Below are positions 22,375 through 23,912 of a stretch of DNA of 34,241 nucleotides, in pieces. Positions within the stretch are counted from its first letter, which is position 1. Every line of letters begins with the position of its first letter. The notes under the pieces are model-generated. The model ran no database searches and was not told the origin of the DNA. It saw only the letters and a program-made list of their open reading frames with translations. The position numbers and the translations under genes are program-made. This DNA is from Prochlorococcus sp. AG-418-O03 (GTDB taxonomy: Bacteria; Cyanobacteriota; Cyanobacteriia; PCC-6307; Cyanobiaceae). The stretch lies in NCBI GenBank assembly GCA_003213855.1, contig QCMJ01000010.1, positions 1 through 34,241 of the forward strand, given 5' to 3'.

Positions 22375-22419
22375 TAAAAAACTTTTAGAAATACCCATCA
22401 CTTGCTAAAGTAGTTGAAA

Positions 22420-22425
22420 TAAAAT
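22420..22425 (+). promoter_or_regulatory. Possible -10 element of rpsB
   Basis: TAAAAT lies 11 nt after the TTG of AGTTGAAA and just upstream of the structured leader. If used, transcription would start near 22431-22433, so the leader would consist almost wholly of the predicted pseudoknot. No convincing -35 is present. Confidence 0.3.
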
Positions 22426-22430
22426 CCACA

Positions 22431-22494
22431 CATCTGGCAGTTTCGGGTGATTTATTAACATTAATTCCCCGTCAGATGGAGGCTAACCCGAAAC
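22431..22494 (+). promoter_or_regulatory. Predicted structured leader (pseudoknot) of rpsB-tsf
   Basis: Two inverted repeats interleave. Stem 1 is CATCTGGC (22431-22438) with GTCAGATG (22471-22478), 8 bp with one G-U pair. Stem 2 is GTTTCGGGT (22440-22448) with ACCCGAAAC (22486-22494), a perfect 9 bp. The order a-b-a'-b' is that of an H-type pseudoknot with loops of 1, 22 and 7 nt. GGAGG (22478-22482), the only strong Shine-Dalgarno match here, abuts stem 1 and is 24 nt from the ATG, with the stem 2 strand in between. A T-run (22496-22501) follows stem 2. S2 autoregulates rpsB-tsf in E. coli through its leader; an analogous role here is inferred. Confidence 0.6.
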
Positions 22495-22506
22495 CTTTTT
22501 TAAATT

Positions 22507-23211
22507 ATGGCTGTTGTATCACTATCAGAAATGATGGAAGCTGGTGCTCATTTTGGGCATCAAACTAGACGTTGGAACCCCAAGATGTCTAAGTATATAT
22601 ATTGCGCGAGAAATGGAGTTCATATTATTGATCTTGTGAAAACAGCATTGTGTATGAACAATGCTTATAAATGGACGAGAAACGCAGCAAAAAGCGGTAA
22701 ACGTTTCCTATTTGTCGGTACAAAAAAACAAGCATCAGATGTAGTAGCTCAGGAAGCTACACGCTGTGGAGCTGCATATGTAAATCAAAGATGGCTTGGA
22801 GGAATGTTGACTAATTGGACAACAATGAAAGCTAGGATTGAAAGATTAAAGGATCTAGAAAGAATGGAAAGTAGTGGCTCAATAGCAATGAGGCCTAAAA
22901 AAGAAGCTGCAGTATTAAGAAGAGAACTTGAAAGATTACAAAAATACTTAGGTGGACTTAAGGGTATGAGAAGATTACCAGATGTAGTTGTATTGGTTGA
23001 TCAAAGAAGAGAATCTAATGCAGTATTAGAAGCTAGAAAATTAGATATCTCATTAGTATCAATGCTGGATACAAATTGCGATCCGGATTTGTGTGAAGTT
23101 CCAATTCCTTGTAACGATGATGCCGTTAGATCTGTGCAACTTATTTTAGGAAGACTTGCAGATGCCATAAATGAGGGTAGAAAGGGCTCTAATGCCGAAA
23201 GAAAAAATTAA
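22507..23211 (+). CDS. rpsB: 30S ribosomal protein S2
   Basis: The 234-residue S2 protein, essential in the small ribosomal subunit near the platform and S1 site. Family phrases are present from the start: [68 protein letters not shown] and the [17 protein letters not shown] segment. Length is normal for cyanobacteria. It is the first gene of an rpsB-tsf operon, with tsf starting 44 nt after its stop. Its leader carries the interleaved stems described separately, and the ATG at 22507 lacks a close Shine-Dalgarno. Confidence 0.98.
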
Positions 23212-23255: not shown

Positions 23256-23912
23256 ATGGGAAACATTACAGCAAAACTTGTAAAAGATCTTAGAGACAAA
23301 ACTGGTGCAGGAATGATGGACTGCAAAAAAGCTCTTAACGAAACTGGAGGAAATCTTGATAAAGCTTTGGAATGGTTAAGAAAGAAAGGCATAGCTAGTG
23401 CTGAAAAGAAATCGGGAAGAGTAGCTGCCGAAGGGTCAATTGGTAGTTATATACATACTGGATCAAGAGTCGGAGTTTTACTAGAGTTAAATTGTGAAAC
23501 TGATTTCGTTGCTAGAGGTGATTTATTCCAATCTTTGTTGAAGGATGTCTCAATGCAAGTAGCAGCATGTCCAAATGTCGAGTATGTATCAATTGATGAA
23601 ATACCAGAAGATGTTGTGGAAAAAGAAAAGCAGATTGAAATGGGTAGGGATGATTTGTCGGGGAAACCAGAACAGATTAAAGAAAAAATAGTTGAAGGTA
23701 GAATAGCAAAAAGACTTAATGAGCTTGTTTTGCTTTCACAACCCTACATTAAAGATAGTTCTCTAACAGTTGAGGATCTTGTTAAACAAGCAGCTGCAAA
23801 AATTGGGGAAAATATCAAAGTAAGACGCTTTACAAGATATACATTAGGTGAAGGTATTGAAATAAAGCAGATGGACTTTGCTGAAGAGGTTGCATCAATC
23901 CAAAAAAACTAG
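23256..23912 (+). CDS. tsf: Elongation factor Ts
   Basis: The 218-residue nucleotide exchange factor for EF-Tu. The N-terminal UBA-like domain carries [18 protein letters not shown], and the core has [13 protein letters not shown], the EF-Tu-contacting motif. The protein is of the short cyanobacterial/chloroplast form, with only one core subdomain after the N-terminal domain, compared with about 280 residues in E. coli. Conserved end: [11 protein letters not shown]. It is co-transcribed with rpsB. The next gene starts a few bases after its TAG, so transcription probably continues into the unknown gene and recG. Confidence 0.97.

Follow-up and report, generated by a model that had tools for sequence, protein, structure and literature searches.

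A conserved pseudoknot pairing of the known rpsB motif in the rpsB-tsf leader of Prochlorococcus

Introduction

In E. coli, ribosomal protein uS2 in excess represses translation of rpsB-tsf by way of the mRNA leader, and bS1 is needed for this repression. The Shine-Dalgarno (SD) sequence and the start codon are not contained in the operator, and the mechanism is described as unclear in the review that summarizes this work (PMC10931766). An annotated RNA, t44 (Rfam family RF00127), is located just upstream of E. coli rpsB. An 'rpsB motif', together with its pseudoknot, was described in 2009 from Proteobacteria, Cyanobacteria and some Firmicutes (Meyer et al. 2009, PMC2704228). Marine cyanobacteria had been screened before that, and conserved structures were reported ahead of several ribosomal protein operons; rpsB is not among the operons named in the portion of that report available to us (PMC1242208). 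A literature search of titles and the beginnings of abstracts, covering few subscription papers, returned no paper on a cyanobacterial S2 leader beyond these two.

Here, we report on the rpsB leader in a 34,241-nucleotide stretch of Prochlorococcus DNA (the window), which is contig 10 of a 1.31-Mb assembly that is 80.6% complete. A preliminary description of this DNA proposed a pseudoknot in the rpsB leader and knew of no described cyanobacterial equivalent. The latter statement has to be withdrawn, as the 2009 paper names Cyanobacteria as carriers of the same pseudoknot (PMC2704228). The element is of a known kind, and its occurrence in Cyanobacteria was already in print.

Materials and Methods

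Upstream regions of rpsB (59 loci and 140 stretches) were taken from genomes that belong to the window's genus, family, class or phylum; loci were picked by their rpsB match, and not every match was included. Alignment A1 comprises 94 of the 199 loci, with 18 from the genus, 13 from other genera of the family and 63 from other families. Rows were admitted by an anchor parse that demanded GGGTG, ACCC and a P1 of no fewer than 5 bp. Outside A1 are 11 loci that the parse missed (L060, L150-L157, L159, L198), four that it parsed wrongly or doubtfully (L076, L086, L094, L158), loci that repeat a motif, and loci with a P3 region of more than 50 nt. Leader counts refer to distinct leaders (127 from the genus, 24 from other genera of the family and 83 from other families) and used a regular expression for the 3' core that was widened after the sequences had been seen. 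For the estimate of chance, two stems were required to cross, each with at least 8 bp, at least four G-C pairs and at most one G-U pair.

Results

Features of the rpsB locus are collected in Table 1. RpsB matches were found in 80 of 101 genomes of the genus, its own genome included, and rounded identity to many named Prochlorococcus records is 100%. The downstream open reading frame is presumably tsf, a name that we assign from its sequence and position. Upstream of the leader, an extended -10 pattern predicts a transcription start at about 22418 (22417-22419). The pattern TGnTAnnnT is present 115 to 60 nt before the ATG in all 127 genus leaders, in 1 of 24 from other genera of the family and in 54 of 83 from other families; a consensus promoter scan, which requires a -35 hexamer, did not list the element. 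The preliminary description had held that a start downstream of 22440 would refute the pseudoknot, and the start predicted from sequence lies upstream of that position. A literature search that led to PMC5607370 yielded no mapped start for rpsB.

Table 1. Positions of features in and around the rpsB leader of the window
Feature	Sequence	Position	Strand	Basis or remark
Extended -10-like element	TGCTAAAGT	22403-22411	+	Sequence pattern
Conserved 5' flank, just 5' of P1	CACA	22427-22430	+	
Stem 1 (P1), 5' strand	CATCTGGC	22431-22438	+	Sequence; alignment support
Loop 1 (1 nt)		22439		
Stem 2 (pseudoknot helix), 5' strand	GTTTCGGGT, also written GUUUCGGGU	22440-22448	+	
Loop 2 (22 nt), P3 region, variable		22449-22470	+	Fold prediction
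Stem 1 (P1), 3' strand	GTCAGATG	22471-22478	+	Sequence; alignment support
Loop 3 (7 nt), linker	GAGGCUA	22479-22485	+	Columns at least 90% conserved in A1; GAGG common with E. coli t44
Stem 2 (pseudoknot helix), 3' strand	ACCCGAAAC	22486-22494	+	
T-run, between pseudoknot and start codon		22496-22501	+	Nearly genus-restricted
rpsB (ribosomal protein uS2), 234 aa		22507-23211	+	Open reading frame; ATG 22507-22509
tsf (elongation factor Ts), next gene; presumed		23256-23912	+	Open reading frame

The preliminary description reported an 8-bp stem and a perfect 9-bp stem that cross in the order a-b-a'-b', and the sequence confirms both, stem 1 including one G-U pair and stem 2 having no mismatch. 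This crossing arrangement is far beyond chance. Not one of 5000 dinucleotide shuffles of 22418-22506 contained a crossing pair at our thresholds, and at least one single stem of that quality appeared in 174 of a separate 5000 shuffles. When the window was tiled into 6832 stretches of 89 nt (step 10, both strands), three contained a crossing pair, all of them covering the rpsB leader. Nested folding of the leader is unremarkable (z -1.19, with 23 of 200 shuffles folding equally well or better), the folding program being blind to the crossing stem. Three of the four columns of the 5' flank are at least 90% conserved in A1, and most relatives have CGCA at this location. At most a weak helix is predicted in the P3 region by single-sequence folding of the window, and the length of this region in relatives ranges from 15 nt to more than 100 nt. 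At L060, L147 and L114 it has grown to approximately 90-150 nt, with P1 and the crossing strands retained.

P1 and the crossing helix are conserved and covarying, directly before rpsB-tsf. A covariance model, R1, built from cyanobacterial leaders alone, detected the motif in all 189 loci of the same class with 30.6 to 76.6 bits; 94 of these loci are rows of the model, the window among them, and 95 are not. In the window's own genome R1 gave one strong match of 65.8 bits, to a leader that is itself a row of the model, and the next match scored 12.5. The motif is mostly undetected outside the class, as eight of the ten loci from other classes of the phylum had no R1 match up to E 10; L150 gave a modest match (17.5 bits) and L157 a weak one (8.2 bits, E 0.28). 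Four loci from these other classes with weak or no R1 match (L154, L156, L157 and L159) have in common a block resembling GTTTAACCCGTAGTAC, located ahead of the SD within 50 nt of rpsB; this block is possibly a diverged S2 leader.

Across the 94 rows of A1, all seven counted pairs of P1 show changes of both partners that preserve the pairing, and 98.2% of P1 cells are paired. Eight pairs were counted in the crossing helix, with 94.5% of cells paired: the four core pairs (GGGU/ACCC) are invariant, three edge pairs are double-changed and one varies by loss alone. Invariance of the core is in part a product of the anchor-based choice of rows, and the core therefore contributes no covariation. The double changes arose in separate families, at pair 24-105 (U-A in f19), pair 23-106 (A-U in f18) and pair 21-108 (A-U in f7, f11 and f28). 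Unpaired rows number 26 at pair 21-108, 11 at pair 22-107 and 47 at pair 17-109, the ninth and outermost. Over 16 pairs and 94 rows, 93.4% of cells are paired versus 84.8% in shuffles, there are 175 double-changed cells versus 42.3, and the covariation score is 0.329 versus 0.167; a one-column slide of the 3' strands brings pairing down to 46.2-53.8%. The anchor requirements of the parse bias the percentages paired upward and affect the double changes and the slide control less. RNAalifold, which is unable to draw pseudoknots, recovers P1 unaided. The comparison across relatives that the preliminary description had called for thus shows compensatory changes in both stems, and neither stem is lost in the class-level loci.

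The pairing of the pseudoknot is conserved in the window's leader, and its formation is predicted. The two stems might instead be mutually exclusive folds of a switch, given that their energies are similar when each is enforced singly (-17.1 and -16.2 kcal/mol) and that loop 1 is a single nucleotide. With such a loop the full 9-bp crossing helix looks sterically tight, and the forming of all nine pairs is doubtful. However, limiting stem 2 to 7 bp leaves 3 nt in loop 1, which we judge to be workable. Furthermore, the two helices are retained jointly across the aligned families, and the published model of the rpsB motif draws them as one pseudoknot (PMC2704228). We consider a switch improbable.

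A transcription attenuator would be a different reading of stem 2, in which this stem and the T-run would form an intrinsic terminator in competition with stem 1. As in an intrinsic terminator, a GC-containing stem, here of 9 bp, is followed by a T-run, and stem 2 forced alone is nearly as stable as stem 1. Unlike in an intrinsic terminator, the loop of the hairpin would be 37 nt, and the U-run after the stem is hardly present outside the genus: a four-T run is found in 106 of 127 genus leaders, but in none of 24 from other genera of the family and in 1 of 83 from other families, where a crossing helix is kept. The T-run also fits the A+T richness that is general to the genus. The preliminary description had pointed to a terminator-like hairpin at this site; the T-run and the 37-nt loop are present, but the terminator role is rejected on account of the loop and of a T-run that occurs in 1 of 107 leaders outside the genus, and we regard attenuation as highly improbable. 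A terminator scan that was limited to loops of 3-8 nt, and was therefore blind to the stem 2 hairpin, listed a 7-pair hairpin at 22431-22449, with 0.2 expected.

The conserved pseudoknot pairing corresponds closely to the rpsB motif as published (PMC2704228). In both, the element lies before rpsB and has P1 and a pseudoknot that joins a junction strand to the sequence extending 3' of P1. P2, missing or no longer than 3 bp in Cyanobacteria, is absent from the window, where 1 nt separates P1 from the crossing strand. The motif also has a P3 helix, for which folding of the window predicts a weak helix in 22449-22470. The published pseudoknot has 5 predicted base pairs, whereas the window's family can form nine.

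Comparison with t44 extends these parallels. The window and t44 have in common the position before rpsB, the CACA flank, an 8-bp P1, the GAGG linker and the crossing GGGU/ACCC helix, in the order CACA-P1-GGGU(G)-P3-P1'-GAGG-linker-AACCC. They differ in that E. coli has approximately 12 nt between P1 and the crossing strand, compared to 1 nt in the window, and in pair 24-105, next to the core, that is G-C in E. coli and C-G in the window as read by eye. Searched against 16 loci, R1 finds E. coli t44 with 18.9 bits (E 0.00017). In the opposite direction, the Rfam t44 model aligns exactly on the window's leader, its CACA, P1 and GAGG linker included, but the score of 24.9 bits (E 0.0054) is below the gathering cut-off of 44, so that Rfam misses this leader and we dropped a formal filing as RF00127. 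None of 17 other cyanobacterial rpsB leaders reached the t44 cut-off, compared to 83.5 bits for the E. coli control, and no family of Rfam release 15 reached its cut-off in any of these 17 leaders or in that of the window. A glutamine riboswitch (RF01739, 43.3 bits) was detected in another cyanobacterium at L065:349-405 (+), a few hundred bases from rpsB.

Leaders of the window's family, whose other genera we take to be Synechococcus-like, differ from those of other families in their SD content. Past the crossing strand, 2-8 nt beyond its ACCC, an SD-like tetramer begins ahead of the ATG in all 83 distinct leaders from other families, versus none of 151 from the window's family (127 from the genus and 24 from other genera). 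A lack of SD that is specific to rpsB was considered and rejected: among the window's 20 ATG-started open reading frames of 150 aa or more, none has GGAG, GAGG or AGGA at -18 to -4; yet the rpsB leaders of the two groups are different. Prochlorococcus has been described as likely not reliant on SD sites (PMC5607370). The crossing helix differs as well. Nine crossing pairs are possible in all 31 family rows of A1 (28 entirely Watson-Crick and three with one G-U pair), compared to 6-8 bp in 71 of 85 loci from other families, of which eight have 9 bp, five have fewer and one is a misparse.

Discussion

The leader described here is very probably the known rpsB motif as it occurs in Prochlorococcus, a t44-type S2 leader through which uS2 would repress rpsB-tsf. 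That S2 binds the Prochlorococcus leader is what we infer by analogy with E. coli. On the same analogy, uS2 in excess over 30S subunits would bind the folded leader, probably together with bS1, and would block initiation of rpsB translation, with tsf lowered too. The likely physical step is stabilization of the crossing helix, the 3' strand of which ends 12 nt before the AUG. The knot could block landing of the 30S subunit directly, as opposed to terminating transcription. Given this distance of 12 nt and the adjoining SD in other families, the knot probably occludes the landing place of the 30S subunit; since the E. coli operator contains neither SD nor start codon and its mechanism is unclear, such occlusion is a guess.

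An element at the 5' end that passively enhances translation or stabilizes the mRNA, and does not sense S2, would also be compatible with a predicted RNA 5' end just upstream of the motif, and our literature search found no binding or reporter data on the S2 leader of a cyanobacterium. Against a passive element, the motif precedes rpsB in every one of the 189 class-level loci, albeit loci chosen by rpsB, and is the one strong match in its own genome. In addition, CACA, GAGG and the pseudoknot recur in the E. coli leader by which S2 represses rpsB. We give a passive role little credence, and favor control by S2.

Within this S2-controlled class, the window's family, that would be Prochlorococcus and the Synechococcus-like genera, may now carry an SD-free variant of the leader, with a crossing helix of up to 9 bp versus the usual 6-8 and repression that does not involve masking of an SD. 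We put this forward tentatively and consider it rather unlikely. In such a variant, repression would perhaps come from S2 and S1 bound as a complex to the knot and to the tract downstream of it.

The crossing stems of the preliminary description are borne out as a conserved pseudoknot pairing with compensatory changes, equivalent to the S2-controlled leader of E. coli, and now have a place in a known family. Cyanobacterial S2 leaders go uncalled at the cut-offs of Rfam 15 despite the 2009 description, which constitutes an annotation gap. The division between leaders that have an SD and those that do not offers a clean comparison for how S2 blocks its own translation. If the SD-free variant is real, it would be a natural test of S2 repression where no SD exists.
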